From a virus, in IMG/VR virus record IMGVR_UViG_3300037264_007062, positions 1 through 54,603 of that record: a stretch of DNA of 54,603 nucleotides, one strand, 5' to 3'. The notes under the pieces were generated by a model that was given only the letters and a program-made list of their open reading frames with translations, made no database searches and was not told the origin of the DNA. Position numbers and translations under genes: made by a program. Each line of letters begins with the position of its first letter. The first letter of the stretch is position 1. This document shows, piece after piece, positions 12,533 to 52,445 of the stretch.

Positions 12533-14225
12533 CTTTTTTCCAAGTAAATATCATGTTGCCACAATCCCATATTCTTCTATAACCGTTGTTAAACATATTT
12601 TGCGTTTCACTCAATTGAGACTCGAAATTATCTAATAATCCAGATAATTTATGTTTCTGGAATTTAGTTCTAGATAACATTTTCTTATCTCCTTTTTTAT
12701 TATTAATATAATAATATTTTGGCCTGCTATTACCGGCATATTCCATTTTTAGTTTATTATACATATTGCCGTTGCTATATCTCAAGTCGGCATAACTTAT
12801 AATTGATTCTGGATTATAGTTATCAAGGAAGTATTTAAATAATTTACTGGCACCGCCGATTGTTGAAGTATATTTTTTATTACAGAATCTTACAAGTTCA
12901 TATTGATATTTCTTATTATATCTGGGTTTACTAAAGGTCATTAAGGACACTAATTCATTATTATAAAATAATCCTAGTTTTATACTAGAACCAACATGAC
13001 CTTGAATATGATTTTCATCTAAGAATTTTTTGATTGATTTATTATCATAAATTTCTTTTATTTCACATTTACGTGCATATATTCTATTATTCTTATTTAA
13101 CTTTCCTGATATCATAGATTTCCAGATATCCTGTCTTACAGGATCTAGCCATTCATTCTCGAATATATGGAATAATTGGATATTGTTGTTGTAACAAATA
13201 TTCGTTTTATACAAATGTTTGTTTTTTTCTTTTCTTGATTCAAGACGATCATAAGAATGATAGAATAAGCCATTGAATTCTATTGCAACTCTATGATATG
13301 GAATGAATATATCTATTTCTTTATTTTTTATTTTTATACGATGATTTATCTCCTTATCACAGACATTTTTAATAAAATTCAATATTTCTTTTTCATATGA
13401 AGACGCATAAAATTTTCGAACTTCTAGATCATGTTTCTTTAACCAAGAAATAACAGTTCCATATACGATGCCTAATTCTGATCCTATTTCTGTGCATGTT
13501 TTTTCTAATTTATGATGTTGAATTAATAACCAATCTTTGTCTTTTAATTTTTTTAATGATTCTTCTGAAACATTTATCTGATTAATGTTGTCATAAATTT
13601 CTCCGTATTTTAGTTTCACTGTTTTTAATATCGATTTTCTAATTTTTTTCTGTATTTCTTTGTTTTGACTTATATTTTCTACTCCATATCTGTTTTTAAT
13701 AGTTTCTTTTATTTTATCTCTTATTTCTTTAACTGAGAAAGTACTTTCGACTCCGTATTTTTCTAAATTCGTTTTTCTTATTTCTTCTTTTATTCGTTCA
13801 GAAAACATTACGTTTTCAACACCGTATCTTTCTATATTTGTTTTTTTTATTTTTTCATTAATTTCATGTTTTTCTTCTTCAGATTTAGAATTATGATGAA
13901 TAGAAATGTTTTTGGCTATTTCTGGATCCTTGTTTGCACAAATATCAGAACAATAAGTTTTGTAACCTACAGAAAAACATACAAATCTGACTTTTTTATT
14001 GCATATTTTACATATTTTTGTTTCTATAATATCATTAAGAACACAATAAATCCTTTCGTTGTTTTTTGAATTTTCATCCAAAAAGCGCGTTAAATCTAAA
14101 ATTTCTTCATATTTTTCTTTAAAGTTCGAAATAAAATAATTAGTTTTAACTCGGGCTGGATTAAGTCCTAGATGATTAAACAAATTATCTTTGATCCAGA
14201 ATTTAAGTTCTTCTTTATTCTTCAT
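12516..14225 (-). CDS. Free-standing homing-endonuclease-like protein (copy 2)
   Basis: 569 residues, paralogous to copy 1 over its full length and inverted relative to it. It has zinc-finger-like CKICNK and CSDIC motifs, three NUMOD-like repeats (IERYGVENVMFSE, LEKYGVESTFSV, KNRYGVENISQ), the core VAIEFNGLFYHS with HIFENEW, and a C-terminal third almost identical to copy 1 (ARKCEIKEI, GHVGSSIKLGLF, YADLRYSNGNMY). Asp in FDGLFWHS of copy 1 is Asn here, which may matter for metal binding. Its 3' end overlaps the gp13-like gene by 17 bases, and its start overlaps the next gene upstream by 11. Confidence 0.75.
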   Translation of the reverse strand: MKNKEELKFWIKDNLFNHLGLNPARVKTNYFISNFKEKYEEILDLTRFLDENSKNNERIYCVLNDIIETKICKICNKKVRFVCFSVGYKTYCSDICANKDPEIAKNISIHHNSKSEEEKHEINEKIKKTNIERYGVENVMFSERIKEEIRKTNLEKYGVESTFSVKEIRDKIKETIKNRYGVENISQNKEIQKKIRKSILKTVKLKYGEIYDNINQINVSEESLKKLKDKDWLLIQHHKLEKTCTEIGSELGIVYGTVISWLKKHDLEVRKFYASSYEKEILNFIKNVCDKEINHRIKIKNKEIDIFIPYHRVAIEFNGLFYHSYDRLESRKEKNKHLYKTNICYNNNIQLFHIFENEWLDPVRQDIWKSMISGKLNKNNRIYARKCEIKEIYDNKSIKKFLDENHIQGHVGSSIKLGLFYNNELVSLMTFSKPRYNKKYQYELVRFCNKKYTSTIGGASKLFKYFLDNYNPESIISYADLRYSNGNMYNKLKMEYAGNSRPKYYYINNKKGDKKMLSRTKFQKHKLSGLLDNFESQLSETQNMFNNGYRRIWDCGNMIFTWKKANLKP

Positions 14226-16123: not shown

Positions 16124-16463
16124 TTTTATTATTATAGAGAGTTAAATCTTTATTTTTCAATAGAAAATAAATTTTTGAGATTGTTGATTTAATTTCCTCT
16201 TCATTTGGATCTTTTTCATTTTCAATAAAAAATATTATTCGAGCGCACTCATTTATGTCATGAAAAATCGTGCCATCATCTGAGTGTTCTTCAATGATCC
16301 GGATAATCAGATATTTATCTTGGTCGTCGAGGGTGTTTATCCAGTCGTCCATTTTGCTTTTGCCTGGAATAAGATTTTTTCTTATCGTTTTTACAACTAT
16401 ATGCGCGGCATACATCTTATTCTGGGCCATGAGTCTCTCACAAAAAAATTCATTGAAGAGCAT
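16116..16463 (-). CDS. Hypothetical protein, 115 aa
   Basis: Not recognised; helical, mildly acidic, no membrane segment. First gene of the minus-strand block 14215-16463, divergent from the ankyrin array starting at 16492. The 28 bases between are almost all A/T and must hold both start regions. Confidence 0.55.
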   Translation of the reverse strand: MLFNEFFCERLMAQNKMYAAHIVVKTIRKNLIPGKSKMDDWINTLDDQDKYLIIRIIEEHSDDGTIFHDINECARIIFFIENEKDPNEEEIKSTISKIYFLLKNKDLTLYNNKNA

Positions 16464-16491
16464 ATTATTAATATATATAGTTTTGTGTAAA

Positions 16492-16947
16492 ATGCTTAAA
16501 TTTGAACAATATCTTAATGAAAATAAAGATTTAGATCATCAATTGATAGATGCGGCTAGATCAGGTGATCTTGAACTTGTTAAGAAATTAACAGATCAAG
16601 GTTCTGATATTCATGCTGAAAATGGTTTAGCTTTAAGAAATGCTAGCCGGCGTGGTCACTTAGATATAGTTAAATATCTTATAAATAATGGTTCTGATAT
16701 TCATGCTGAAAATGATTATGCTTTAAGATACGCTAGTTATACTGGCCATCTAGATGTAGTTAAATATCTTATTCAACAAGGATCTAATGTACCTGAATTG
16801 ATAGATATACCTGAAGAAGTACAGGAGATAGCTATAAAGAATGACGCTGGTAATATCAAATATATAAATAATTTAAGATCTGATCTTAAAAATAAATATA
16901 AACATTTAATACAGGCTTCAGGATTTGGATTATTTGATAATGATTAA
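16492..16947 (+). CDS. Ankyrin-repeat protein 1 of the first array, candidate packaged effector
   Basis: 151 residues from the ATG at 16492, which gives the family N-terminus MLKFEQYLNENKDLDHQL; the longer open frame upstream is a shadow of the opposite gene. Three repeats of about 30 residues follow (ELVKKLTDQGS, DIHAENGLALRNAS, DIHAENDYALRYAS), then the family tail IPEEVQEIAIKND ending FGLFDND. Smallest member of the family. L-N-E after residue 7 fits the T4 prohead protease rule. Its last 8 bases are the start of the next gene. Confidence 0.85.
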   Translation: MLKFEQYLNENKDLDHQLIDAARSGDLELVKKLTDQGSDIHAENGLALRNASRRGHLDIVKYLINNGSDIHAENDYALRYASYTGHLDVVKYLIQQGSNVPELIDIPEEVQEIAIKNDAGNIKYINNLRSDLKNKYKHLIQASGFGLFDND

Positions 16948-17497
16948 ATTTGAACAATATCTTCTTAATGAAAAAAATTTCGATTTAGATCAGAAGTTAA
17001 TATCAGCATCTGTAAAAGGCGATCTTGATCTTGTCAAAAAATTAATAGATCAAGGCGCTGATGTTCATGTTGAACACGACGCATCTTTAAGATATGCTAG
17101 TGAATACGGTCATTTGACCGTATTAAAATATTTAATTGAAGAAGCCGGAGCTAATATAAAAGTTAAAAATTATCAAGCCTTAAGATTAGCTAGTTATAAT
17201 GGACATTTAGAAATAGTTAAATATCTTATAAGCAAAGGAGCTGATATTCATGCCGAAGATGATTATGCTTTAATATTGGCTTTAAGAGGCAATCGTACAG
17301 ATGTTATAAAATACTTATTACAAAAAGGAGCTAATTTTCCTGAATTTGGAATTGATATTCCTGATAATATGCAAGAAATGATTATTAAAATCAACATTAA
17401 AAATATAAAATATATTAAAAATTTAAGAAATGATCTTAAAAAGAAATATAAACATCTGTTAATAGGATCAGGATTCGGATTATTTGATGATGATTAA
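16940..17497 (+). CDS. Ankyrin-repeat protein 2 of the first array
   Basis: 185 residues, start MIKFEQYLLNEKNFDLDQK. Four repeats; the second is one residue longer than the rest (KYLIEEAGA) and the fourth is degenerate (LILALRGNRTDVIKYLL). The tail is the most diverged of the array (IPDNMQEMIIKIN) but still ends FGLFDDD. It overlaps the neighbours by 8 bases on each side through ATGATTAA, so it should be translated by coupling rather than from its own ribosome-binding site. Confidence 0.85.
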   Translation: MIKFEQYLLNEKNFDLDQKLISASVKGDLDLVKKLIDQGADVHVEHDASLRYASEYGHLTVLKYLIEEAGANIKVKNYQALRLASYNGHLEIVKYLISKGADIHAEDDYALILALRGNRTDVIKYLLQKGANFPEFGIDIPDNMQEMIIKINIKNIKYIKNLRNDLKKKYKHLLIGSGFGLFDDD

Positions 17498-18029
17498 ATT
17501 CGAACAATATCTCAAAGAGAATAAAGATTTAGATCAACAATTAATGAATGCATTTAAAGATGGCAAACTTGATCTTGTCAAACAATTAATAGGTCTAGGG
17601 GCTGATATTCATGCTGATAGTGACGGCGCTTTAAGATGGGCTAGTGAAAAAGGTCATTTAGAATTTGTTAAATATTTGATAGAGCAAGGCGCTGATATTC
17701 ATGCTGGTGATGAATATGCTTTAAGATGGGCTAGTTTAAATGGTCATTTAGAAGTAGTTAAATATCTTGTAAATAAAGGAGCCGATATTCATGCTGAGAA
17801 TGATTTTGTTTTAAGATATGCTAGTTATTATGGTCATTTAGAAGTAGTTAAATATCTTATCCAGCAAGGATTAAATATACCCATTTATATAGATATACCT
17901 GAAGACGTACAAGAAATAGCTATAAAAAATGATGTTAAAAACATAAAGAATATTAAGAATTTAAGATATGATCTTAAAAAGAAATATAAACATCTGTTAA
18001 TAGGATCAGGATTCGGATTATTTAATTGA
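17490..18029 (+). CDS. Ankyrin-repeat protein 3 of the first array
   Basis: 179 residues, start MIKFEQYLKENKDLDQQL (cleavage candidate L-K-E). Four well-kept repeats (DIHADSDGALRWAS, DIHAGDEYALRWAS, DIHAENDFVLRYAS) and the tail IPEDVQEIAIKND ending FGLFN. The usual DD-stop is replaced by N-stop, and no ATGATTAA junction follows; instead a gp14-like gene begins 3 bases later. Confidence 0.85.
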   Translation: MIKFEQYLKENKDLDQQLMNAFKDGKLDLVKQLIGLGADIHADSDGALRWASEKGHLEFVKYLIEQGADIHAGDEYALRWASLNGHLEVVKYLVNKGADIHAENDFVLRYASYYGHLEVVKYLIQQGLNIPIYIDIPEDVQEIAIKNDVKNIKNIKNLRYDLKKKYKHLLIGSGFGLFN

Positions 18030-18032
18030 ATT

Positions 18033-18572
18033 ATGATTGTAAAAAAAGACGGATCAGAATATATTGTCAAAGGTCCGGTCAAAAAAAATCATGACGAATG
18101 GGATTTTAATAAAATTGATATAAGATATTTCAATTTTGATCAATTCGCCAAAGCTGAATTATTAAATAAACAGATAATTAAAAATACAGAAAAAAGACTT
18201 GAAAAAGTACAAAAAATAATATCTGAACCCATCCAGAATGATGATGATTATCTCGACAAAGAAACAAAAGAAATAAACAAAGAAACTGCTCTTAGAATAA
18301 TTTCTGAAATTGAACCTGAAGAAGATCAAAAAGACTATTCTTCAGAGATATTACCAGGATTTCCTGTAACCTATATGTCTCCAGAAAAAGAAAAAGCCAG
18401 AATGTATGCCTCAATATTAGAAGATAATAATCATGATAAAAAAATAATTATTTCTGGTGATTACGCTATCGAATATAACGGAAAAATACTCATTGAATAT
18501 GATAACAGCTGGTGGAATATAGTCGAATTGATTCATAAGAAAAATAATTTTATTGTAACTTTGAATAAATAA
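18033..18572 (+). CDS. Divergent gp14-like paralogue lodged in the ankyrin array
   Basis: 179 residues. It shares short landmarks with the gp14-like gene at 19853 in the same order: an N-terminal KKDGSEYIV (KSDGSSYTS there), a mid-protein GFPVTYMSPE (GSPITYYPS), and a C-terminal NSWWNIVEL (KTWWEILQ). It lacks the FGIDSNDELVF segment of gp14. It may be a duplicated and reduced neck protein; since the match is low this is an inference. Its position, between ankyrin genes that otherwise abut, suggests the array has expanded around an older neck-gene region. Confidence 0.5.
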   Translation: MIVKKDGSEYIVKGPVKKNHDEWDFNKIDIRYFNFDQFAKAELLNKQIIKNTEKRLEKVQKIISEPIQNDDDYLDKETKEINKETALRIISEIEPEEDQKDYSSEILPGFPVTYMSPEKEKARMYASILEDNNHDKKIIISGDYAIEYNGKILIEYDNSWWNIVELIHKKNNFIVTLNK

Positions 18573-18576
18573 AATA

Positions 18577-19212
18577 ATGATTAAATTTGAACAATATCTC
18601 CTTAATGAAAATGAAAGTTTAAGGCAACAATTAATAAATGCTTCTAGAAAAGGCAATTTTAATCTTGTTAAGAAATTAATAGAACAAGGAACAGATATTC
18701 GTGATTATGATGAGGCTTTAACCTGGGCCAGTTCTAACGGTCATTTAGAAGTAGTTAAATATTTTGTAAGCAAGGGCGCTAATATTCATAATTATGAAGA
18801 AGGAGCTTTAAGAGCAGCTGTTAGTTTTAATCATTTAGAAGTAGTTAAATATCTTATAAGTAAAGGCGCTGATATTCATGCTTTTGATGACGCAGCTTTA
18901 AGGAATGCTAGTTATCGTGGTAATTTAGAAATGGTTAAATACCTTATAAATAATGGCGCCGATATACACGCTGAAAATGATAAAGCTTTAATAACAGCTA
19001 TTGATGGCGGACAGTCAGAAGTGATTAAATATCTTATTCAACAAGGATCTAATATAACCAAAGAAATGAATGTACCTGAAAATGTTCAGGAAATTGTAAT
19101 AAAAAGTGATATAAAAAATATAAAGAATATTAAGAATTTGAGATCTGATCTTAAAATTAAATATAAACATCTATTACAGGCTTCAGGATTTGGATTATTT
19201 AGTGATGATTAA
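18577..19212 (+). CDS. Ankyrin-repeat protein 4 of the first array
   Basis: 211 residues, start MIKFEQYLLNENESLRQQL. Five repeats, the later ones drifting from the consensus (LRAAVSFNHLEVVKYL, LITAIDGGQSEVIKYL), and the tail VPENVQEIVIKSD ending FGLFSDD. Its last 8 bases start the next gene. Confidence 0.85.
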   Translation: MIKFEQYLLNENESLRQQLINASRKGNFNLVKKLIEQGTDIRDYDEALTWASSNGHLEVVKYFVSKGANIHNYEEGALRAAVSFNHLEVVKYLISKGADIHAFDDAALRNASYRGNLEMVKYLINNGADIHAENDKALITAIDGGQSEVIKYLIQQGSNITKEMNVPENVQEIVIKSDIKNIKNIKNLRSDLKIKYKHLLQASGFGLFSDD

Positions 19213-19834
19213 ATTCGAACAATATCTCAACGAAGGCATGCGTTTAGAAAAACAATTAATAACTGCTTCTAAAAAAGGTAATCTTAATCTCGTTAAACAA
19301 TTAATAGATCGAGGTGTTGATATCCATGCTAATAATAATTGGGCTTTAAGATGGGCTAGTCTCAATGGTCATTTAGAAGTAGTTAAATATTTAGTAAAAA
19401 AAGGCGCTGATATACATGCTAATAATGATTATGCTTTAATATGGGCTAGTAATAGTGGTCATTTAGAAGTAGTCAAATATCTTATAAGTAAAGGTGCTAA
19501 TATTCATGTATATAATGATAAGGCTTTAAGATGGGCTAGTTCTTATGGTCATTTAGAAATCGTTAAATATCTTATAAGTAAAGGTACTGATATCCATGCT
19601 GATAATGATGAAGCTTTAATAAATGCTAGTGATAGAGGTCATTTAGAAGTAGTTAAATATCTTATAAGTAAAGGATCAAACATACCTGAAGAAATGGATA
19701 TACCCGAAGATGTACAGGAAATAGCTATACAGAATGATGTTGGAAATATTAAGAATATAAAGAATTTAAGATCTGATCTTAAAAAGAAATATAAACATTT
19801 GTTAACAGCTGATAAATTCGGATTATTCAATTGA
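19205..19834 (+). CDS. Ankyrin-repeat protein 5 of the first array
   Basis: 209 residues, start MIKFEQYLNEGMRLEKQL. Five very regular repeats (ALRWASLNGHLEVVKYL, ALIWASNSGHLEVVKYL and so on) and the tail IPEDVQEIAIQND ending in DKFGLFN. It is the last of the array and lies 18 bases before the gp14-like gene. The repeats' variable positions (for example residues after ND and between AS and GHL) differ from those of its neighbours, as expected if each copy binds something different. Confidence 0.85.
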   Translation: MIKFEQYLNEGMRLEKQLITASKKGNLNLVKQLIDRGVDIHANNNWALRWASLNGHLEVVKYLVKKGADIHANNDYALIWASNSGHLEVVKYLISKGANIHVYNDKALRWASSYGHLEIVKYLISKGTDIHADNDEALINASDRGHLEVVKYLISKGSNIPEEMDIPEDVQEIAIQNDVGNIKNIKNLRSDLKKKYKHLLTADKFGLFN

Positions 19835-36622: not shown

Positions 36623-37355
36623 ACATAAAAGTTTTATAGTAAAAGAAATTCCAGTTAAAATATCCGGAGAATTTCTTATTCCGACTGACATTGATAAAAT
36701 TGTAAAAGATTTAGAATCAATGGAAATACTCGGAAAGACCGGAACAAAAAAATTTTCAAATGTTGTTTACTGGGAATGGAAGAACAAAGTAATCCGGTTG
36801 CATCTGTATGGTGAATACGGATTAATTGAAAAAAAAGTAAAATCTCCAGAAAATCATAGTGAAGATAATATTTGGATACTTAAAAAAATAATTCCAGTAG
36901 GAGATTTTCACAGCGCTAAGACCGATGTTCTTCCGATCATTAAAAGAGAAGTCATAAAAGCTTCTAAAAGTGAAAAAGAAGACTGGTCTGAATCTTTCAG
37001 AATAAATTCTATAACAAAAAAACTGAAAGAAGCTTTAGTTCAATATTTGCCGAAAATGTGGTTCGCTACAGAAAAAATAAACATAAAGAATTTAGGGCCC
37101 AAGAGACGTATCATATACGTGCCTTTAGTCGGAATGGGTGTAGGACATACAGATAATCAGAGATTATATCAAATTATGTTTGATATATATATTGATGATA
37201 ATAATATATTGAATGTTATTGAGGGAAATATTGAAGGATCATTACATGGAGGAGAGTGGTCTATAGGACCTTCAGATCTTATTGCTAAATTTGCACCATG
37301 GCAGTCTGAAGAAGAAATTGTTGATGCAATAGCAGAATTTGCCGGAAGATACTAA
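36597..37355 (+). CDS. Hypothetical protein coupled to the AAA+ ATPase, 252 aa
   Basis: Alpha/beta, with a central VVYWEWKNKVIRLHLYGEYG and a C-terminal GNIEGSLHGGEWSIGPSDL. Not recognised. It overlaps the AAA+ gene by 26 bases and the first ankyrin gene of the second array by 1 base, so all may be cotranscribed. It could be a substrate adaptor of the ATPase (inference from position only). Confidence 0.6.
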   Translation: MILLSEKNKHKSFIVKEIPVKISGEFLIPTDIDKIVKDLESMEILGKTGTKKFSNVVYWEWKNKVIRLHLYGEYGLIEKKVKSPENHSEDNIWILKKIIPVGDFHSAKTDVLPIIKREVIKASKSEKEDWSESFRINSITKKLKEALVQYLPKMWFATEKINIKNLGPKRRIIYVPLVGMGVGHTDNQRLYQIMFDIYIDDNNILNVIEGNIEGSLHGGEWSIGPSDLIAKFAPWQSEEEIVDAIAEFAGRY

Positions 37356-37900
37356 TGATTAAATTCCAACAATATCTCAATGAAAATAAAGATTTAGATG
37401 AACAATTAATGTATGCATCCGGAAGCGGTAATCTTGAGCTTGTTAAGGAATTAATAGAAAAGGGTGCTGATATCCATTCTAATAGTGATGAAGCTTTAAG
37501 ACGGGCTAGTTCTTATGGTCATTTAGAAGTAGTTAAATATCTTATAAGTAAAGGCGCTAATATTCATGCCTCAAGTAATTATGCATTATTATCGGCTATC
37601 GTCAATGGTTTTTTAGATATAGTCAAATATTTAATAAGTAAAGGTGCGAATATACATGCAGATAATGATGATGCTTTAAAATATGCTAGTAATAGTGGTA
37701 ATTTAGAAGTCGTTAAATATCTTATTCAACAAGGATCAGATATACCTAAATTGATGGATATACCTGAAGATGTACAAGAAATAGCTATAAAAAATGATGT
37801 TGGAAATATAAAGAATATTAAGAATTTAAGATCTGATCTAAAAGAAAAGTATAAACATTTGTTAATAGGATCAGGATTCGGATTATTCAGTGATGATTAA
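37355..37900 (+). CDS. Ankyrin-repeat protein 1 of the second array, candidate packaged effector
   Basis: 181 residues, start MIKFQQYLNENKDLDEQL. All members of this array have Gln-Gln where the first array has Glu-Gln, so the two arrays expanded separately. Four repeats of 30 residues, the third altered (ALLSAIVNGFLDIVKYL). The tail is IPEDVQEIAIKND ending FGLFSDD. Its ATG shares one base with the preceding stop (TAATG). Confidence 0.85.
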   Translation: MIKFQQYLNENKDLDEQLMYASGSGNLELVKELIEKGADIHSNSDEALRRASSYGHLEVVKYLISKGANIHASSNYALLSAIVNGFLDIVKYLISKGANIHADNDDALKYASNSGNLEVVKYLIQQGSDIPKLMDIPEDVQEIAIKNDVGNIKNIKNLRSDLKEKYKHLLIGSGFGLFSDD

Positions 37901-38528
37901 ATTCCAACAATATCTCAATGAAAACAAAGATTTAGATCAGCAATTAATAGATGCCTCTTATGATGGTAATCTTAATCTTGTTAAAAAATTAATAGATCAA
38001 GGCGCTAATATCCATGCTGATAATGATAATGCTTTACAATGGGCTAGTGAAAATGGTCATTTAGAAGTCATTAAATATCTTATAAGTAAAGGAGCTGATA
38101 TTTATGCCGACAATGATGAGGCTTTAAGATTAGCTAGTAATAATGGTTATTTAGATGTAATTAAATATCTTATAAGTAAAGGTGCTGATATTCATACTGA
38201 AAACGACTATGCTTTAAGAGAGGCTAGTTATAAGGGTCATTTAGAAGTAGTTAAATATTTAATAGGTAAAGGGGCTGATATTCATGCTGATGATGACGAT
38301 GCTTTAAAATCTGCTAGTTATTATGGTCATTTAGAAGTCGTTAAATATCTTATTCGACATGGATCAAACATAACTGAAAAAATTGATATACCCGAAGATG
38401 TACAAGAAATCGCTATAAAGAATGATGTTGGAAATATTAAGAATATTAAGAATTTGAGATCTGATCTTAAAGAGAGATATAAACATCTGTTAACAGGATC
38501 AAAGTTCGGATTATTTGATGATGATTAA
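37893..38528 (+). CDS. Ankyrin-repeat protein 2 of the second array
   Basis: 211 residues, start MIKFQQYLNENKDLDQQL. Five regular repeats (ALQWASENGHLEVIKYL, ALRLASNNGYLDVIKYL, ALREASYKGHLEVVKYL, ALKSASYYGHLEVVKYL). The tail ends FGLFDDD. ATGATTAA overlaps of 8 bases at both ends. Confidence 0.85.
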   Translation: MIKFQQYLNENKDLDQQLIDASYDGNLNLVKKLIDQGANIHADNDNALQWASENGHLEVIKYLISKGADIYADNDEALRLASNNGYLDVIKYLISKGADIHTENDYALREASYKGHLEVVKYLIGKGADIHADDDDALKSASYYGHLEVVKYLIRHGSNITEKIDIPEDVQEIAIKNDVGNIKNIKNLRSDLKERYKHLLTGSKFGLFDDD

Positions 38529-39162
38529 ATTCCAACAATATCTCAATGAAAACAAAGATTTAGATCAGCAATTAATAACTGCTTCTAAATCAGGTAATCT
38601 TAATCTTGTTAAGAAGTTAATAAAACAAGGTGCTGATATCAACGCCGAAGACTACGAAGCTTTTAAATTATCTGTGGCTAGTAATAAAGGTCATTTAGAT
38701 GTAGTTAAATATCTTATAAATAATGGTATCGATATCCATACTAACAGTGAAGAGGCTTTACAATGGGCTATTATGAAAGATCGTTTAGAAGTAATTAAAT
38801 ATTTAGTAGAAAAAGGCGCTGATATCCATATTAATAAAAATCGAGCTTTAAGATTGGCCAGTGAAAAAAATTATTTAGAAGTAGTTAAATATCTTGTAGA
38901 AAAAGGTGCTGATATTAATGCTAATAACAGTATGGCTTTAAAATGGGCTTATGACACTGATTCTTATAATGTATTTAAGTATTTAATCCAACAGGGATCA
39001 AATATAGGTGAATTGATGGATATACCTGAAGATGTACAAGAAATAGCAATAAAGAATGATGTTAGAAATATAAAGAATATTAAAAATTTAAGGTCTGATC
39101 TAAAAGAAAAGTATAAACATTTGTTAATAGGATCAGGATTTGGATTATTCAGTGATGATTAA
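38521..39162 (+). CDS. Ankyrin-repeat protein 3 of the second array
   Basis: 213 residues, start MIKFQQYLNENKDLDQQL. Five repeats, the most diverged of the array: the second is two residues longer (YEAFKLSVASNKGHLDVVKYL), and the last loses the AS-GHL core (ALKWAYDTDSYNVFKYL). The tail is intact, IPEDVQEIAIKND to FGLFSDD, as is the N-terminus, so the ends are under stronger constraint than the repeats. Confidence 0.85.
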   Translation: MIKFQQYLNENKDLDQQLITASKSGNLNLVKKLIKQGADINAEDYEAFKLSVASNKGHLDVVKYLINNGIDIHTNSEEALQWAIMKDRLEVIKYLVEKGADIHINKNRALRLASEKNYLEVVKYLVEKGADINANNSMALKWAYDTDSYNVFKYLIQQGSNIGELMDIPEDVQEIAIKNDVRNIKNIKNLRSDLKEKYKHLLIGSGFGLFSDD

Positions 39163-39694
39163 ATTCCAACAATATCTCAATGAAAATAAAGATTTAGATC
39201 AACAATTAATAGATGCTTCTAAAGATGGTAATCTTGATCTTGTTAAACAATTAATAGAACAAGGGGCTGATATCCATGCTGAAAATGATATAGCTTTAAT
39301 ATTTGCTAGTGTTAATGGTCATTTAGAAGTAGTTAAATATCTTGTAGAAAAAGGAGCTGATATTCATGCTGATGATGATTATGCTTTAAGATCAACTAGT
39401 TTTAAAGGTCATTTAGAAGTAGTTAAATATCTTGTAGAGAATGGCGCTGATATTCATGCTGATAATGATTGGGCTTTAATATTGGCTAGTTTAAGTGGTC
39501 ATTTAGAAATCATTAAATATTTAATTCAAAATGGATCAGATATACCTAAATTAATGGATATACCTGAAGATGTACAAGAAATAGCTATAAAGAATGATGT
39601 TAAAAATATAAAGAATATAAAGAATTTAAGATCTGATCTTGAAGATAAATATAAACATTTGTTACAAGCTGATAAATTCGGATTATTTAATTAA
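39155..39694 (+). CDS. Ankyrin-repeat protein 4 of the second array
   Basis: 179 residues, start MIKFQQYLNENKDLDQQL. Four regular repeats and the tail IPEDVQEIAIKND ending DKFGLFN. Like the last gene of the first array, it ends in KFGLFN and lacks the ATGATTAA junction, so that ending marks the last module of each array. Confidence 0.85.
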   Translation: MIKFQQYLNENKDLDQQLIDASKDGNLDLVKQLIEQGADIHAENDIALIFASVNGHLEVVKYLVEKGADIHADDDYALRSTSFKGHLEVVKYLVENGADIHADNDWALILASLSGHLEIIKYLIQNGSDIPKLMDIPEDVQEIAIKNDVKNIKNIKNLRSDLEDKYKHLLQADKFGLFN

Positions 39695-42754: not shown

Positions 42755-43813
42755 ATGAAGATTTTGATCTTTTCTGATCTCCATGTCCATCATCATTCTG
42801 GATCAAGTGAAAAACTTGATAATTGCATTGATTGTTTGCATTGGATTTACAAAGAATCTGAAAAAAGAAGAATAAAAAATATTGTATTCGGAGGGGATCT
42901 GTTCCACGATCGCCACAAAATTAATCTATACGCTTATAACAAAGTTTACGAAATATTAGAACAATATTCTGAAAAAATAAATTCTTATTTTTTAGTCGGA
43001 AACCATGATATGTTCTACAGATCATCGTGGTCTGTCATTTCTTTAAAACCTCTTTCGAAAATATTAAGAATTATAGACAAACCCGAAACTATAAAAATTT
43101 CAGATTTGTCTATTGATTTTCTTCCGTATACAGAAAATCCCGAAGAAGAAATGAAGAAATTAAGTAAGAAATCAAAAGTTCTTGTTTCACATCTGGCCGT
43201 CCAAGGCGCAACTTTAAACACATTATGGGGAATAAAAAAGGATGATTTTGAAGAAGAAATAGACGAGACAAATAAGAATAACTTTGAAGGATATGAAAGA
43301 GTTTTTTTAGGACATTATCATGCAAGACAAAGAATAAAAGGAACTAACATTGAATATATCGGAAGTCCGCTTCAGCTTTCATTTGGTGAAGCAATGGATC
43401 CTAAAGGCTTTATCATCTTAGATACTGAAACCATGAAAACGGAGTTCGTTGAAAATACGTTTTCTCCAAAATACTTTATAATTCCAGATAAGGAAGATCT
43501 TGATCAGTATAATATTAACGGAGGGTATTTAAAATTATTGGTTTCAGATATAAGAAAAACAAATCTTATTGAATTAAAAAGGAATATAAAAGACAAATAC
43601 AATCTTAAATCTATAGAAATAATTCAAGTAGAAAAATCAAAGAAAGAAACCGGCGAAAAAGAAATAAAAAACATAGAACTTATTTATTCTAACAAAAAAT
43701 CAGTCATTCAAAAATTCGTCGAAAATACCGAAACAGATCTGGATAAAAACAAACTGATTGAAATAGGTTCTAGAATAATATCAGAAGTAAATCAAGAAGT
43801 ATGCTTTAATTGA
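42755..43813 (+). CDS. Recombination endonuclease subunit gp47 (Mre11-like)
   Basis: 352 residues (T4 gp47: 339). Metallophosphoesterase motifs in order: FSDLHVHHH, FGGDLFHDRH, VGNHDMFY, LVSHLAVQG and FLGHYHARQ. With gp46 it forms the Mre11-Rad50 type complex that resects DNA ends for recombination-dependent replication. It is followed after 7 bases by the gp46 N-terminal gene. Confidence 0.92.
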   Translation: MKILIFSDLHVHHHSGSSEKLDNCIDCLHWIYKESEKRRIKNIVFGGDLFHDRHKINLYAYNKVYEILEQYSEKINSYFLVGNHDMFYRSSWSVISLKPLSKILRIIDKPETIKISDLSIDFLPYTENPEEEMKKLSKKSKVLVSHLAVQGATLNTLWGIKKDDFEEEIDETNKNNFEGYERVFLGHYHARQRIKGTNIEYIGSPLQLSFGEAMDPKGFIILDTETMKTEFVENTFSPKYFIIPDKEDLDQYNINGGYLKLLVSDIRKTNLIELKRNIKDKYNLKSIEIIQVEKSKKETGEKEIKNIELIYSNKKSVIQKFVENTETDLDKNKLIEIGSRIISEVNQEVCFN

Positions 43814-43820
43814 TTAAATT

Positions 43821-44054
43821 ATGAAGTTTAAACGACTATACATAAAAAACTTTATGTCTGTGGGTGAAGAATCTGTCGAAATCAATTTTGAAGATTTTGA
43901 TGATATTGTATTAATCAAAGGATATAATCTTGATGAAAACAACAAAGAGGATTCCAACGGCAGTGGAAAGTGCGTAGACAGTACTACAAAAATAGAAATA
44001 TTATATGACAGAGATGAAATAATAAAATTAATAGGATTCGACCCTTTCAATTAG
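43821..44054 (+). CDS. Recombination endonuclease subunit gp46 (Rad50-like), N-extein plus short split-intein N fragment
   Basis: 77 residues. The first 50 are the Rad50/SMC start (MKFKRLYIKNFMSVGEESVEINFE, IVLIKGYNLDE) through the Walker A fragment NGSGK. Residues 51-77 are a 27-residue intein N fragment starting at Cys (CVDSTTKIEILYDRDEIIKL) and ending at a TAG stop. The rest of the intein and of gp46 is in the separate gene at 44135. Such a short N fragment, cut before intein block B, is the atypical split layout known from phage metagenome inteins such as AceL-TerL. Confidence 0.85.
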   Translation: MKFKRLYIKNFMSVGEESVEINFEDFDDIVLIKGYNLDENNKEDSNGSGKCVDSTTKIEILYDRDEIIKLIGFDPFN

Positions 44055-44134
44055 TTAAAGAAAAAAGAGTTAAATAATAAATTTAAAATTATTTGGATTA
44101 ATGATTGGAAAAATTATATACAGGAAATTTCAAA

Positions 44135-46585
44135 ATGTTTAAAAAATATTCAATAACATCAATTGGAAACATCGTAGAACTATTTGAAAAATATCCTGTT
44201 CTCAAATCAAAAATTGAAGTTAAATCTGATACTGGATTCTTTAAAATTCTGGAAGCACGGAAAACATATTATGGAAAATATTATACTATTTACGATAAGA
44301 ACAAAAACAGTATAATTTGTTCTCCAGATCATATCTTTATTGACGATAATCTACAAGAAATAAAAGCCAAAAAGTTGACGATAGAATCTAAAATATCATC
44401 AACTGATGGATTCAGATCAGTATCAGACATCGAAATATCAGAAGATTCAAGATCTTTATATGATATAGAAGTTGATGAAGTACATCGATATTATACAAAT
44501 GGATTTTTGTCTCATAATTCACTTTTGATAGAATCGATAGTATTTGCTGTTTTCGGTCGCACTATCAGAGGCCAGTCGGTAGATAAGATTATCAATAAAC
44601 AAAATAAAAAAGAATTATATGTAGAACTTGAAATTGACAATCTTAAGATAATTCGCAAAAGAAAACCAAATTCCTTAGAATTATACAGTGAAGATAAAGG
44701 CAATGAAACCCTGTCGACTGTGTCTTTAACGCAAAAACTGATTGAAGATAAAATCGGCGTTAATTATGAAACATTCATAAACATATTATGTTATGGCCAG
44801 CATAATATGTTTGATTTTCTTTCGGCCTCCGCGCCGGCGAAGAGAGCTATTATTGAAAATCTTTTAAGTCTAGAAGACTATAACAAATATGAATCTGTCG
44901 CCAGAAAAACATCTAATACTCTTAAAAAAGAAATGGCGAGATTATCAGGAAAATATGAAACAATACTAGAGAATGAATCTAAAAACAAAGAACAATTAGA
45001 TTCTTATAAGAAAAAGTTTCTAGATTTCGTCTCAGAAAAAAGACTTGAAATTGAAAAATTAGAATCTAAAATTGAAAAATTCAAAAACATTGACATTGAT
45101 GAAGAACTTAAAAAATTTGAAGAATCAGAACAAAAATTAAAAAAAATCAATAAAATCAATGAAGAATATCAAAACACAGTTCATGATTTAGATAAAACAA
45201 ACAAAAGATTCAAAGAATATGAATTAAAATTCAATAATTTTCAGCATGACATTCAAAAAGAACTCAAATATTTAAAAATTAAAATCGAAAATATATTGTC
45301 GATAGATATCGATCTTCGTTTAGAAGAATGGAATATATATGAAAAAAAATTAAAAGATTTAACTAAAGCTCAACAAGAACTAAACGAAATCAGTTTGAAT
45401 ATTTCGAATATTGAAAAAAATCTTATACCTATAATTAATGAAATAAAACAAATTGATGAAAACCTATCCAAGATAAAAAATATTGAATTAGGCGTAAGAT
45501 GTCCTTCATGTCTGCAAATTGTTGATCCAGATAACGCAAAAAATACTGAAAAAGATTTTTCTGAAATGCGAGAAGAATTATCCGAACAACTTTCTGATCC
45601 TCAAAAAGAACTTCAAAAATTTTATGATCTTAAAAAACAACTCTCATCAAAACATAAAGAATTGAGCAAAATAAAAGAACCTGAAATCAAAAAAGAAGTT
45701 TTAATCAGACACCAGTCTGATAAAGAGCATTTAAACAGCCAACTCAAAGAGAAAGAAGAAAGATTAAACGAAAATCCGTATGATGATATCATCAACAAAA
45801 TAAATGTCGAAATTCTTCAGCTTTCAGAAAAAATAGATAATATTAAAAAAGAAATCGACAAAGAACAATCGGAATTTAACAAATATGCAGATTTCAAAAA
45901 ATCAAAATTTGACAAAGAAGAATTAATAAAGTTTAAAGCTCAAAAAGATCACACAAATGAATTATTAGAATCTAAAAAATCAGAATTAAAAAACAACACT
46001 TATGAAGATGTAATTAAAAATATTGAAAAAGAAATAAAAGAAATTTCCTCAAACATCAAATCTCTAAAAAAAGAGATGCAAACAAAAGAAGATCTGACTC
46101 CGTATTTAGATTTTTGGATTCATGGATTTAGTGACACCGGAATTAAAAGTTATATTATCAATCAGATCATTCCGGCTTTAAACTCCCAAGTCAATTATTG
46201 GCTGCAATTTCTTTATAATAATCGCTTAGAAATTGAATTCGACCAATATCTAGACGCCAAAATATTCTCGTATGATGAAGAATTTGATTACAAAGGATCA
46301 TCCGGAGGAGAAAAGAGAAGAATCGATCTAGCTATATTATTATCATTCGCTCACATTATGAGACTGAGTTCAAAAGCTGATAACAATATTTTATTTCTTG
46401 ATGAGAGTACGGAATCATTAGACAAGAACGGAGTAGAGTGCATGTACCAGACAATATTAGAACTTTCAAGAGAAAGAACTGTCTTTGTTATTACCCACCA
46501 TCCATATTTACTTGAAAAATTCGAAAACAGACAAAAATTGATTGTAATAAAAGAAAACAGATTCTCTAAGTTTCACACAGAATAA
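44135..46585 (+). CDS. gp46 (Rad50-like), split-intein C fragment plus C-extein
   Basis: 816 residues from the ATG at 44135, which has AGGA 9 bases upstream. Residues 1-128 are the intein C fragment: block B-like ICSPDHIFI, block F LYDIEVDEVHRYYTNGF and block G LSHN. Splicing would join NGSGK to Ser at 44519, restoring NGSGKS. The extein then has the long coiled coil, the zinc hook CPSC, the signature SSGGEKRR, Walker B ILFLDEST and the His switch VITHH. Extein length is about 738 residues after splicing, well above T4 gp46 (560), mainly from longer coiled coil. A functional ATPase requires trans-splicing. Confidence 0.87.
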   Translation: MFKKYSITSIGNIVELFEKYPVLKSKIEVKSDTGFFKILEARKTYYGKYYTIYDKNKNSIICSPDHIFIDDNLQEIKAKKLTIESKISSTDGFRSVSDIEISEDSRSLYDIEVDEVHRYYTNGFLSHNSLLIESIVFAVFGRTIRGQSVDKIINKQNKKELYVELEIDNLKIIRKRKPNSLELYSEDKGNETLSTVSLTQKLIEDKIGVNYETFINILCYGQHNMFDFLSASAPAKRAIIENLLSLEDYNKYESVARKTSNTLKKEMARLSGKYETILENESKNKEQLDSYKKKFLDFVSEKRLEIEKLESKIEKFKNIDIDEELKKFEESEQKLKKINKINEEYQNTVHDLDKTNKRFKEYELKFNNFQHDIQKELKYLKIKIENILSIDIDLRLEEWNIYEKKLKDLTKAQQELNEISLNISNIEKNLIPIINEIKQIDENLSKIKNIELGVRCPSCLQIVDPDNAKNTEKDFSEMREELSEQLSDPQKELQKFYDLKKQLSSKHKELSKIKEPEIKKEVLIRHQSDKEHLNSQLKEKEERLNENPYDDIINKINVEILQLSEKIDNIKKEIDKEQSEFNKYADFKKSKFDKEELIKFKAQKDHTNELLESKKSELKNNTYEDVIKNIEKEIKEISSNIKSLKKEMQTKEDLTPYLDFWIHGFSDTGIKSYIINQIIPALNSQVNYWLQFLYNNRLEIEFDQYLDAKIFSYDEEFDYKGSSGGEKRRIDLAILLSFAHIMRLSSKADNNILFLDESTESLDKNGVECMYQTILELSRERTVFVITHHPYLLEKFENRQKLIVIKENRFSKFHTE

Positions 46586-47306: not shown

Positions 47307-50300
47307 ATGTCTTCCAAAGAAGAATCAGATGTCATTGTTTTAGAAACTGCAGATAATTCAGAGCATAAAAATAAAAATTTGTTGAAATTAGAAAGATATT
47401 TCACAGATGGTATAAATTCACCTTTTGAAAAAGTAGAATGGACTACTACAAGAATAAAAATCACAAGCCATGAAGATGGAAAAATTATCTTCGATTACAA
47501 CGTCGAACATCCTATTTTCTGGGATGAAATGGCTGTAAGAATATGTGCAGACAAATACTTCAAAACAAATGATATCGAATGTCTTGCTCATGGCGGAGAA
47601 AGATCAATCAAAGACGTGCTCCACCGTGTAGCTCACAGTATCGCTACTCGCGGACTTAAAATGGGATACTTTGACAAGGCCGGAAGCGGAATTATTTACG
47701 ATGAAATATGTCACATCTTACTGCATCAGATCGCCGCATTCAATTCTCCAGTATTCTTTAATATGGGATTATGGGACTCATATAAGTTTCCTGGAAATTC
47801 TAAAGCTGAAAGATGGGGTATAAAAGACAGAGACGGCGAAGTCTATAAGCAAGAATTTGAATATGAGAATGCACAAGGTTCAGCATGCTACATCACAGAA
47901 GTAAACGACGAACTGATCAACGGTGAGACTGGAATTTATGACTGGATTACCACTGAAATGAAAATTTTCGCCAATGGATCGGGATCTGGAGTCAATGTCA
48001 GCCGAATCCGAGGCGAAGACGAACCTATATCTGGCGGTGGAAAATCTTCTGGACTTATTTCATTTCTAGAAATTGCAGATTCTTCAGCCGGATCAGTAAA
48101 ATCAGGTGGAAAAAACCGAAGAGCTGCTAAAATGATCATGCTCGATGATACCCATCCCGATTTGATCGATTTTATAAACTGGAAAAAACAAGAAGAATTT
48201 AAAGCCAGAACTCTGATTCTTAACGGATATGAAAGTAATTTCGGATTTGAGAACAGAGACAACGCCTACAGAACTATCCAAGCCCAGAATGCCAATAACT
48301 CAATCCGAGTTAGTGACGAATTTATGAATGCCGTAATCGGTGACAAAGACTGGGAATTAAAATATGTAAAAAACAAAGAAACAAAAATAAAAATCAAAGC
48401 TTCAAAAATATTTGATGAAATAGTAGATTCGGCCTGGGAATGCGGAGATCCAGGCCTGTTTTACAAAGGCCCTGTGGAAAAATGGAATACAACTCCAAAT
48501 TCCGGAGAAATAAGATCAACTAATCCATGTTTGACTGGAGAAACTTTGATTGCTACAGCTGATGGAAGAAACACCGTTTCTATCAAACAACTAACCGAAG
48601 AAGGATCAGATGTTCCAGTATATTCATATAACACCGCAAGCAATAAAATAGAAATAAAAATGGGCCGAAATCCCAGACTCACCGGATATAACCAGAAAAT
48701 ACTCAAAGTAACTTTAGATGACGGTTCAACCATCAGAACTACTGAAAACCATAAATTCTTGCTCAGAGACGAATCAGAAATAGAAGCCAAAGACCTTGAA
48801 CCGAATATGAGTCTTATGCCGTTTAGTAAATATGAAACTTATGGAAGGAAAAAAGGCAGAACAAAATATCAAATAATTAATTTAAATAACGGCAATAAAA
48901 GGGCGGAACATAATTTAATTTATGAATTTTATTCGAATTCGAAAATAGATCATTCCGAATTTTGCATTCATCATAAAGATTATAACGGTTTGAATAATTG
49001 TATTAAAAATCTAGAACTTATGGATCATACTAGCCATAGAAGATTACATATGCTGGATTTTGATTCAAATCCGATGCAGGATGGATGGTGGAACAAAGCC
49101 TCAGAAGAAGAAAAAAATAACTATAAATCTAAGATGTCAGAATCAACATCCGGAACAAAAAACGGAAGATACATAGAAATATCAAATAATGAAATTTTCA
49201 GTCATGCCTTAATACTAGCTTCAAATCTCAGCAGAATGTTTACCCAAATAGAATGGGCAAATTATGCCAGAGAAAATGATTTGATCATTGCTTTTTCTGA
49301 TTTTAGAAAATCAGAATTGACTTCCATATTCCATATGTCTGTCAAAGCTGCGAAACAACTAAATCTTCCTTATTGTGAATCAGACCAGCCTCAGATTGTA
49401 AATGCATTTATAGTAAATTTCAAACATTGGACTAATGCGTTAAAATCAAATTATATCTCTATAAGACACAACGGAGATTATCATCCTATTGTAACCAAAA
49501 AATGCGAACATTGCAACGAAGAGTTTGAAATTGAATGGAATCGAAGAGAACAATCCTATTGCTCTCTTCCATGTTCTAATATAGCCCTGAATAATAAACG
49601 TATTACTGCCGGTCACTACAAAAGATTAGCCGATAAAAACAAGATTATTAACAGCGAGAAACAAAGCAATATCAGAGAACAACAAATCATTGTTTTTAAT
49701 GATCTAAAATTCAAGTTTAAACGTGAACCTATGAAATCTGAATGGGTTAAAGAATGTAAAACAAGAAAAATATCATCAGAAATAGCCAGAATCTCAAGTC
49801 CTTTCAGAAATTATAATGTTCTAAAAGAAACAGCTTCGACCTTTAATCACAGAGTAGTCAGTGTTGAATTTGACGGATATGAAGATGTCTATAATATGAC
49901 CGTAGATGACAACCACAATCTAGTGTGTATCACATCTTCTTCAAGAAACACAAAAATGCAGATGATTGAAAACAAAGGACTTATATCAATTCAATGCGGA
50001 GAATTCCTAAGGCTCGATGGAGAATCGTGCAATTTAGCGTCTCTTAATCTTGTTAAGTTTTTGAATAAGAAGGATCGGTCTTTTAATATCGAAAAGTTTC
50101 AGCGTGTGGTAGAGACTTTTATTTCTGCAATGGAAATAATTGTAGGCGGGTCTTCATATCCTGAAAAATATATCGCAGAAAGAACAAAAGATTCAAGGCC
50201 TTTGGGTCTCGGGTATTGTAATATGGGCGGATTGATTATGGCTCTCGGTTATCAGTATGATTCAGATAATGCCAGATCAATTATTTCTTCAATAACATCT

Positions 50301-52445
50301 TTAGAATCGGCTGTGGCTTATCGTCAGTCCGCGAAAATATCTTCTGTAGTCGGTCCTTTCAAATTATTCGAAAAGAATAAAAAAGAAATGATGAATGTTA
50401 TAAAAATGCACTTAGAATCTACAAAAGAAATAAAATCAAAGATAAAATTCTCAAGAGATATAAAGACTTATGCAGAAGAGGTTTGGGAAGAAACTTATAA
50501 TTCAGGTTTAAAACATGGTTTCAGGAATTCTCAAGTAGTTGTTATCGCTCCGACTGGATGTGTTACCGCCGATACATTGATTATGACTTCTGAAGGGATT
50601 ATGCCAATTTCAGATTTAGGAAATATCAATGGAGATCAGTGGCAGGATATAAATATTAAAGTCATTCAAGAAGATGATGTAACTAGTTCTGATCGATTTT
50701 ATGTTAATGGTATGGATCGAGTTTATAAGATTGTAACAGAAAAAGGGCATGAAATAGAAGCGACTTATAAACACAAATTCAGAGTCATTGATGAAAATTC
50801 AAGATATATGTGGAAAAAGGCTGAAGATATTTGTTTTACTGATACGATATGTTTGGGTCTTGGAGGTCATCATAAGATATTAGGAAACAAGAATTATGTT
50901 CTTTTTAATGGTGAGGAGTTGACTGAAGAAAAAGCAGAGTTATTATTCGAAGATTACAATGATAATGAAGAATTCATATCTTGTATTCTTATGTCTAGGA
51001 CATCTGTGGTCAAGAAATACATTAAAAATTGTTTAAAATATTGTTCTGGAAATAAGATTACATTCAAAAGTGTTGAATCAGCTAAAAAGATTCAAGTTCT
51101 CATAGAATCTTTAGGGACGATTTGTTATAGAAATGATAATATTATAATAATAGATTCATCTGACGTTGATGTGTTATTTTCAGATGAAATATATGAAGAA
51201 ACGTATTTGTATTTAGTTAAGGTAAAGTCTTGTGATTATGTCGGTGAAAAGTTGACTTATGATATTTCTGTTCCTTTAGAACACACATATCGGGCTAACG
51301 GGTTTATAAGTCATAATACAATAATGTTTCTTATGGGTACTACGAATAATGGAATTGAACCCGCCTTTGCACTTACCATGCATAAGAAAATGAGTGACGG
51401 ATCATCAGTTAATCTTATGTGTAGTGAAATGATTTTGTCATTAGAAAATTTAGGATATGATGAGAATCAAATTAATGAAATTTCTGATTACGTAACTCAA
51501 AATGGTCATGTTGAGGGTGCTCCGCACTTAGATAAAAAACACATTCCTGTTTTTGATACAGCTAATATGAATGGAACCGGAACAAGATATATAAGACCCA
51601 TGGCTCATGTCGAAGCTATTTCTGCAGCCACGCCTTTTATATCTGGCGGTGTAAGCAAGACTATAAATCTTCCAGAGAGTGCTGGCAGAGAAGATCTTAA
51701 AGAATGTTACATTAAAGGATGGCAATTAGGATGCAAAGCTTTGTCTATTTACAGAGATAAATCTAAATGGTCACAGCCGTTATCGTCTAGGATAAGTTAT
51801 AATGATTCTAAAAAGTATTCTGTCGAGGCTTCTAGAGTGAAGGAAAGAATAAAAAATTCTGGTTATGATAAAGACGGAATTAATACTTTTCATAGGAGTT
51901 TGTTAGAAAGAAGAAAAGCTCCTGTGAGAGCTGAGTCAGAAAGAATCGAATTCAGATTGGGCGGGGAGACTGTAAGATATCATATTGTCAAGTATCCAGA
52001 CGGTAATATATCTGAAGTTTGGCTTGAATTAGGAAAAGAAGGAGAGACTGTCAAGGGTCTTGTTTCAACTATGGGTCGTCTTCTTTCTGTGGCTATTCAA
52101 TACGGGGTTCCGATCGAGTCTTTGTGTGATACTATGTTAGGACAGCAATATCAGCCTTCTGGATTTATCGGAGAGAATGATTTTGAAATCAGGGGCGCGA
52201 TGAGTATCGCTGATTTGACGGGCAAGGTTCTTTTGGCTATAGGAACTGAAAATAATGATAAGACAGATGTATTTCTAGATAAAAGTATGCCTGAATTGGA
52301 TATAATTTCTCCGGCGGAACAGGCGAGAAAATCCGGGTATTCTGGTCAGCAGTGCAAAAATTGCGCTTCATATAGAACGAAGGGTACTACGAAGTGCGGA
52401 CTTTGCGTAGATTGCGGACATGAATATGGCACATGCAGCGGATAA
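47307..52445 (+). CDS. nrdJ: Adenosylcobalamin-dependent (class II) ribonucleotide reductase with two inteins
   Basis: 1712 residues as translated, about 970 after removal of two inteins (408-896 and 1085-1337). It reduces ribonucleotides to deoxyribonucleotides using B12. Class II features: AAFNSPVFFNMG, GSACYITEVND, SGSGVNVSRIRGEDE, NRRAAKMIMLDDTHPD, the catalytic NPCGE (split by intein 1), ESCNLASLNL, APTGTI (split by intein 2), and a C-terminal cysteine region (CKNCASYR, CGLCVDCGHEYGTC) that acts as a metal-binding or redox tail in this family. No small subunit or activase is needed, but the host must supply B12. Confidence 0.93.
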   Translation: MSSKEESDVIVLETADNSEHKNKNLLKLERYFTDGINSPFEKVEWTTTRIKITSHEDGKIIFDYNVEHPIFWDEMAVRICADKYFKTNDIECLAHGGERSIKDVLHRVAHSIATRGLKMGYFDKAGSGIIYDEICHILLHQIAAFNSPVFFNMGLWDSYKFPGNSKAERWGIKDRDGEVYKQEFEYENAQGSACYITEVNDELINGETGIYDWITTEMKIFANGSGSGVNVSRIRGEDEPISGGGKSSGLISFLEIADSSAGSVKSGGKNRRAAKMIMLDDTHPDLIDFINWKKQEEFKARTLILNGYESNFGFENRDNAYRTIQAQNANNSIRVSDEFMNAVIGDKDWELKYVKNKETKIKIKASKIFDEIVDSAWECGDPGLFYKGPVEKWNTTPNSGEIRSTNPCLTGETLIATADGRNTVSIKQLTEEGSDVPVYSYNTASNKIEIKMGRNPRLTGYNQKILKVTLDDGSTIRTTENHKFLLRDESEIEAKDLEPNMSLMPFSKYETYGRKKGRTKYQIINLNNGNKRAEHNLIYEFYSNSKIDHSEFCIHHKDYNGLNNCIKNLELMDHTSHRRLHMLDFDSNPMQDGWWNKASEEEKNNYKSKMSESTSGTKNGRYIEISNNEIFSHALILASNLSRMFTQIEWANYARENDLIIAFSDFRKSELTSIFHMSVKAAKQLNLPYCESDQPQIVNAFIVNFKHWTNALKSNYISIRHNGDYHPIVTKKCEHCNEEFEIEWNRREQSYCSLPCSNIALNNKRITAGHYKRLADKNKIINSEKQSNIREQQIIVFNDLKFKFKREPMKSEWVKECKTRKISSEIARISSPFRNYNVLKETASTFNHRVVSVEFDGYEDVYNMTVDDNHNLVCITSSSRNTKMQMIENKGLISIQCGEFLRLDGESCNLASLNLVKFLNKKDRSFNIEKFQRVVETFISAMEIIVGGSSYPEKYIAERTKDSRPLGLGYCNMGGLIMALGYQYDSDNARSIISSITSLESAVAYRQSAKISSVVGPFKLFEKNKKEMMNVIKMHLESTKEIKSKIKFSRDIKTYAEEVWEETYNSGLKHGFRNSQVVVIAPTGCVTADTLIMTSEGIMPISDLGNINGDQWQDINIKVIQEDDVTSSDRFYVNGMDRVYKIVTEKGHEIEATYKHKFRVIDENSRYMWKKAEDICFTDTICLGLGGHHKILGNKNYVLFNGEELTEEKAELLFEDYNDNEEFISCILMSRTSVVKKYIKNCLKYCSGNKITFKSVESAKKIQVLIESLGTICYRNDNIIIIDSSDVDVLFSDEIYEETYLYLVKVKSCDYVGEKLTYDISVPLEHTYRANGFISHNTIMFLMGTTNNGIEPAFALTMHKKMSDGSSVNLMCSEMILSLENLGYDENQINEISDYVTQNGHVEGAPHLDKKHIPVFDTANMNGTGTRYIRPMAHVEAISAATPFISGGVSKTINLPESAGREDLKECYIKGWQLGCKALSIYRDKSKWSQPLSSRISYNDSKKYSVEASRVKERIKNSGYDKDGINTFHRSLLERRKAPVRAESERIEFRLGGETVRYHIVKYPDGNISEVWLELGKEGETVKGLVSTMGRLLSVAIQYGVPIESLCDTMLGQQYQPSGFIGENDFEIRGAMSIADLTGKVLLAIGTENNDKTDVFLDKSMPELDIISPAEQARKSGYSGQQCKNCASYRTKGTTKCGLCVDCGHEYGTCSG
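48528..49994 (+). other. Intein 1 in nrdJ, with HNH homing endonuclease and C-terminal Gln
   Basis: 489 residues placed between NP and CGE. Block A is CLTGETLIATADGRN, block B GSTIRTTENHKFLL. The insert carries an HNH nuclease core (CIHHKDYNGLNNCIKNLELM) and a zinc-knuckle pair (CEHCNEEF, CSLPCS). Block F is VYNMTVDDNHNLVCI, after which about 20 extra residues lead to ISIQ, so the last intein residue is Gln and the penultimate one is not His. The +1 residue is the thiyl-radical cysteine of the reductase. Confidence 0.85.
50559..51317 (+). other. Intein 2 in nrdJ, nearly mini-intein
   Basis: 253 residues placed between APTG and TIMFL. Block A is CVTADTLIMTSEG, block B GHEIEATYKHKFRV, block F TYDISVPLEHTYRANGF and block G ISHN, followed by Thr +1. 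About 100 residues in the middle keep weak LAGLIDADG-like features (SAKKIQVLIESLGT) but no clear catalytic motif, so the endonuclease looks decayed. Splicing residues are all present. Confidence 0.85.

Follow-up and report, generated by a model that had tools for sequence, protein, structure and literature searches.

How an intact ATPase can be made from a gene that is broken inside its own ATP-binding loop is the question raised by the gp46 locus of IMG/VR record IMGVR_UViG_3300037264_007062, a T4-like phage (a virus of bacteria) whose whole stretch of 54,603 bases is called the window below. In the window, gp46, the T4-type Rad50, is encoded as two adjacent, separately initiated reading frames. 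Protein splicing very probably rejoins the two pieces at a point that lies within the ATP-binding loop itself. We consider it highly likely that the locus carries a split intein that is functional in trans-splicing and that persisted when an endonuclease was lost. Comparison with relatives suggests that a homing endonuclease gene, of which almost nothing is left, caused the break.

All parts of the gene were located on the plus strand. The N fragment (77 residues) ran from the ATG at 43821 to a TAG at 44052–44054. It comprised a 50-residue extein (43821–43970), which ended in EDSNGSGK, i.e. in the Walker A motif through its Lys, and a 27-residue N-terminal intein part (Int-N, CVDSTTKIEILYDRDEIIKLIGFDPFN, 43971–44051) with Cys1, two β-strands and a predicted helical tail. 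A gap of 80 nucleotides (nt; 44055–44134) with a Shine-Dalgarno-like AGGAAA (44122–44127) separated it from the C fragment, which started with the ATG at 44135 and reached the stop codon at 46583–46585. The first 128 residues of the C fragment (44135–44518) formed the C-terminal intein part (Int-C), with the blocks SPDH and YYTNGFLSHN and the C-terminal end LYDIEVDEVHRYYTNGFLSHN. The C-extein (44519–46585) began with SLLIESIVFAVFGRT at Ser+1, the Walker A Ser, and contained a coiled coil with a zinc-hook-like CPSC (CxxC), the signature SSGGEKRR and Walker B LFLDES; these motifs, together with Walker A and the adjoining gp47 gene, identified the protein as gp46/Rad50. The joined exteins aligned with the intein-free gp46 of the uncultured phage LR756511 (29% identity, E 7e-91), to which the N-extein also aligned, and the alignment was unbroken across the junction, where NGSGK followed by SLLIESIVFAVFG in the joined window flanks matched NGSGKSSIPEIIVYGLFG in LR756511. 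With an offset of 314 nt, the two fragments are in different reading frames, and a single-base error therefore cannot rejoin them. The original prediction, made from the DNA letters alone, had placed an intein between NGSGK and Ser of the gp46 Walker A motif, with an N part of 27 residues ending at a stop and a C fragment with its own ATG and ribosome-binding site 80 bases on; all of these features were found, with exact coordinates.

The intein identity of Int-C was examined at the levels of sequence and fold. Int-C matched Pfam Intein_splicing with E 2.7e-8, slightly under the curated cutoff, and cleared the NCBIfam intein_Cterm cutoff. The AlphaFold2 model, with 24 family sequences as input, had a mean predicted local distance difference test score (pLDDT) of 93.8, and Foldseek comparison with the PDB had inteins and intein-like domains among the matches listed, with gp41-1 and VidaL on top. 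Taken together, these matches and the model confidence argue that the likeness is not due to chance. The models of Int-C and of a contiguous relative, L030 (pLDDT 97.7), both presented a Hedgehog/intein (HINT) fold. Int-C matched gp41-1 (PDB 6qaz) best, both in sequence and in fold; gp41-1 is canonically split, with a long Int-N and a short Int-C, whereas the split in the window is atypical, with a short Int-N and a long Int-C. The residues of a class 1 intein were complete: Cys1, S63-P-D-H66 with the block B His, H127-N128 and Ser+1, so that the splicing blocks listed in the original prediction were all present. We observed no consistent pattern of charge segregation between the halves of the kind seen in canonical split inteins.

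The position of the break was assigned from models and alignments. Helix α1 corresponded to Int-C residues 10–19 in the AlphaFold2 model. In the L030 model, a strand at residues 7–11 was followed by an extra helix (15–21), a strand (26–28) and a helix (29–38), and by this model the break in the split members falls between the extra helix and the strand 26–28. The profile of the 24 Int-C sequences covered all of VidaL Int-C and reached CatC, which is split at S2, only beyond helix 1. By these models the split is of the S1 type (after β2), with a helical tail on Int-N. As reported in PMC13014065, S1 is the split site of VidaL and PolB16, and S2 that of AceL-TerL and GOS-TerL. The S1 assignment made earlier was thus upheld by the VidaL-like alignment and the L030 model, but AceL-TerL, then named as an example of S1, belongs to S2, where the break follows α1; in the window, α1 sits on Int-C. 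The comparison with AceL and VidaL that had been proposed therefore favoured a VidaL-like split over an AceL-type one, since CatC aligned only past helix 1. AceL-TerL and GOS-TerL are natural split inteins with an Int-N of 25–37 residues, and Cat (PDB 6dsl) is their engineered consensus (PMC13014065, PMC11766414); all are split after helix 1. VidaL (PDB 6vgv) is a natural S1-split intein of the same Cys1 type as the window intein and shares its Int-C start, between β2 and β3/α1. The family profile aligned from VidaL residue 25, and the fold match to the window Int-C had a TMq of 0.76 at 24% sequence identity. In contrast to VidaL, with its Int-N of 16 residues, the window has a longer Int-N (27 residues) with an added helix, a gp46 host, and relatives with homing endonuclease genes at the split.

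Searches with Int-C alignments returned about 90 viral loci from IMG/VR; the whole C fragment as a query had found nothing, and Int-C alone found loci. Beyond the window, an intein interrupted Walker A in 29 distinct loci (designated by L and a number), either in gp46 itself or in a more distant Rad50-like protein (L041–L056). Both split halves were present in 24 of them, three were contiguous (L006/L007, L022 and L030), and two had no N half that we could find on the contig. The 24 loci with both halves at the same site indicate that the window is neither a sequencing error nor rare, and the rarity originally attributed to such a split does not hold at this site. A two-fragment split intein is likewise what the TAG, the different frames and the ATG with AGGAAA upstream describe in the window itself. 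The relatives' Int-N had 21–59 residues (21–36 except for one of 59). Cys1 and Thr6 were invariant in 22 of 22 aligned Int-N or contiguous rows, the block-B His and SHN in 24 of 24 aligned Int-C rows, and Cys1, the block-B His and SHN followed by Ser or Thr were kept in all inspected split members. Near-identical copies came from separate metagenomes (L004/L005, L008/L009, L006/L007 and L015/L016), making an assembly error less likely. Other host genes likewise had a C part of this design directly after a Vsr-like endonuclease: of 18 rows compared, 16 were other loci not assigned to gp46, and two, L029 and L035, were near-copies of gp46 loci. Among metagenomic phages, inteins with a natural N-terminal split seem to be common. 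In GenBank phages, a DNA search gave no match, and tblastn with the intein parts had terminase (TerL) inteins and no gp46 among the matches listed. The gp46 matches of Twort and LR756511, when examined, had no intein at this site, and in a scan of genome contigs the only inteins were two distant ones that belong to other types.

What fills the gap in these relatives bears on the origin of the split. Most split members had a gap of about 0.9–1.2 kb holding an open reading frame (ORF) of 320–418 codons. Many of these ORFs carried a Vsr-like C-terminal domain, and they often ran a few to 40 nt into the beginning of the Int-C frame. A free-standing endonuclease gene between the halves, the mark of a fractured gene, was present in, for example, L004, L028 and L034 and absent from the window. 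Partial endonuclease remnants were detected in L032 (111 residues), L015/L024 (126 residues), L036 and L025, each with at least one endonuclease model for which none of 1000 shuffles scored as high. Gaps were short, about 20–90 nt, in L017, L018, L041 and L031; no remnant was clearly detectable in the gaps of these four loci or of L026. In the window, a putative C-terminal remnant of a Vsr-like homing endonuclease (LKKKELNNKFKIIWINDWKNYIQEISKCLKNIQ) occupied 102 nt at 44055–44156 (plus strand, TAA at 44154–44156). It is the N-fragment frame continued past the TAG, and it ends 22 nt inside the C fragment. Against a Vsr-like endonuclease hidden Markov model (HMM) built from related loci with the window left out, it scored 9.5 bits over model positions 55–81 of 82, and 3 of 4000 dinucleotide shuffles scored as high. 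It ranked second of the 1968 stop-to-stop segments of the window, after an endonuclease-like gene at 9934–11520. The gap thus probably holds, although this is not proven, the last codons of a homing endonuclease gene. The original prediction was incomplete in this respect, as it missed both the endonuclease gene in the gap of the relatives and the probable remnant in the window. Fractured-gene loci in which split inteins occur together with Vsr-related homing endonucleases were reportedly described by Dassa et al. in 2009; the relatives of the window resemble them, with a gene for a Vsr-like endonuclease separating the halves, whereas the window has only the putative remnant. To test for a group I intron or another RNA within the gap, the window was compared with Rfam, and no match was found.

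Based on the conserved residues, the fold and the relatives, Int-N (27 residues) would dock on Int-C (128 residues) and complete one HINT fold. A class 1 reaction would then proceed through the Cys1 thioester, with the block-B His, transfer to Ser+1 and cyclisation of Asn128, and the intein would be excised. Ligation of NGSGK to SLLIES would restore an intact Walker A loop. The ATP-dependent function of gp46/gp47 would therefore require trans-splicing. In terms of history, the relatives and the putative remnant point to a free-standing homing endonuclease gene that would have inserted in the loop after β2 of an intein at this site and split the gene; it would later have been deleted to about its last 30 codons, the window phage retaining the split and the start signal.

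The pattern of loss was followed on a tree built from 608 columns of aligned gp46 C-exteins, on which the position of the window is uncertain (long branch). The endonuclease-free split state required nine changes, of which well-supported branches force at least six; for the contiguous state the figures were three and at least two. The sister pairs L041/L044 and L032/L038 differed in endonuclease state with full support. Endonuclease-free split forms would thus have arisen several times, a direction of change that we infer. In the pairs tested, both halves showed purifying selection: the ratio of nonsynonymous to synonymous substitution rates (dN/dS) was about 0.05–0.22 in five close pairs of relatives, and about 0.09–0.22 in the three pairs that include an endonuclease-free or eroded member. 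The dS of the intein was lower than that of the extein in L041/L044, L053/L056 and L045/L054, which suggests recent transfer of those split inteins between phages. We also considered a wider view, for which we find the case evenly poised, that S1-split inteins at phage P-loops reflect a repeated cycle, in which an endonuclease settles after β2, fractures the gene and erodes while the gene stays split. The loop after β2 would be a second endonuclease seat, distinct from the usual intein endonuclease site, and refusion to a contiguous mini-intein would sometimes follow; the gp46 Walker A family would show every stage, with the window at a late one.

Three other accounts of the locus were weighed. 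An assembly or sequencing error could hide an intein that is really contiguous, or gp46 could be a dead, decayed pseudogene; the contiguous inteins at the same site lend this some substance. However, the TAG plus the frame offset separates the frames, so one error is insufficient, 24 further loci, sampled elsewhere, are split at the same point, and the splicing residues, the Shine-Dalgarno-like site and an open C-extein of 688 codons have been preserved, which makes this account very improbable. We find recoding the least probable of the three. TAG readthrough followed by a −1 frameshift would give one precursor that splices in cis, and the N frame is indeed open beyond the TAG to 44153, overlaps the C frame (at −1) and includes a T TTA AAA heptamer at 44138–44144. 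Yet two consecutive recoding events would be required, the N-fragment stops of the relatives include TAG, TAA and TGA, and in most relatives a whole gene intervenes. TAG terminates 4 of the 35 major ORFs of the window, in which no tRNA, and hence no suppressor tRNA, was found, so there is no sign of TAG recoding.

The halves might also not splice at all, gp46 being a non-covalent two-chain assembly, or inactive and bypassed. The Walker A Lys and Ser would then stay on separate chains with an intein domain attached, and the conserved splicing residues and the purifying selection on both halves in close pairs of relatives also speak against it; we regard this account as improbable. Several observations nevertheless weigh against a functional trans-splicing intein left by endonuclease loss. 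Splicing is predicted, not observed, for every family member. The common Trp-x-Lys segment is missing from the window Int-C, whose identity to the relatives is 26–33%; the window has no close relative, and the selection figures come from pairs of relatives, not from the window copy. The remnant is short, with p about 0.001 before correction for the three models tried. Two other endonuclease HMMs, t1 and t2, were weaker on the window gap (50 and 24 of 1000 shuffles as high, respectively), and the remnant therefore rests on the Vsr C-terminal model.

The kind of element is already known, both as natural S1-split inteins and as fractured genes. A literature search, which lacked the full text of the 2009 fractured-gene study, found no report of gp46 as a split-intein host, and novelty is not settled. 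What we find most interesting is that a single site shows graded loss of the endonuclease. So far, only a few natural S1- or S2-split inteins have been described in detail. One host site here offers a series in which the endonuclease is present, partly eroded, nearly gone or gone, together with contiguous forms, and with such a series the origin of atypical split inteins can be tested directly. About two dozen natural Int-N/Int-C pairs are also newly available from the family, their Int-N being of a size suited to peptide synthesis and labelling, and the activity of a recombination ATPase would be tied to trans-splicing.

The partner gene gp47 (Mre11-type nuclease) lies immediately 5′ of gp46 as a 352-residue ORF (42755–43813, plus strand), and its translation carries the N-terminal motifs DLHVHHHSG and GNHD; gp47-like ORFs also precede gp46 in L004, L007, L008 and L015. 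The gp41 helicase of the L004 phage is likewise fractured (L004:1–1805), with a Vsr-like endonuclease and an Int-C from 699 on. Int-C parts directly follow Vsr-like endonuclease genes in L047, L055, L058, L062, L067, L079, L080 and others, with terminase-, helicase- and other ATPase-like hosts. L012, on whose contig the N half was not found, has a GIY-YIG-like ORF on the opposite strand, 5′ of the gp46 C half (L012:1705–2469, minus strand). Elsewhere in the window, two free-standing homing-endonuclease-like genes (Pfam DUF7487) at 9943–11523 (plus) and 12516–14225 (minus) stand on either side of a phage structural gene; nothing else in the window scored as well as the first of them against the Vsr-like endonuclease HMM. 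A ribonucleotide reductase ORF (1712 residues, 47307–52445) appears to hold two further inteins, of which one starts with CLTGETLIATADG and has an HNH-like motif, and the other starts with CVTADTLIMTSEG and ends in ANGFISHN before Thr. About ten ankyrin-repeat paralogues, located at 372–1991, 16270–19834 and 37355–39694, share the C-terminal motif DIPEDVQEIAIKNDVxNIKNIKNLRSDLKxKYKHLL..GFGLF.
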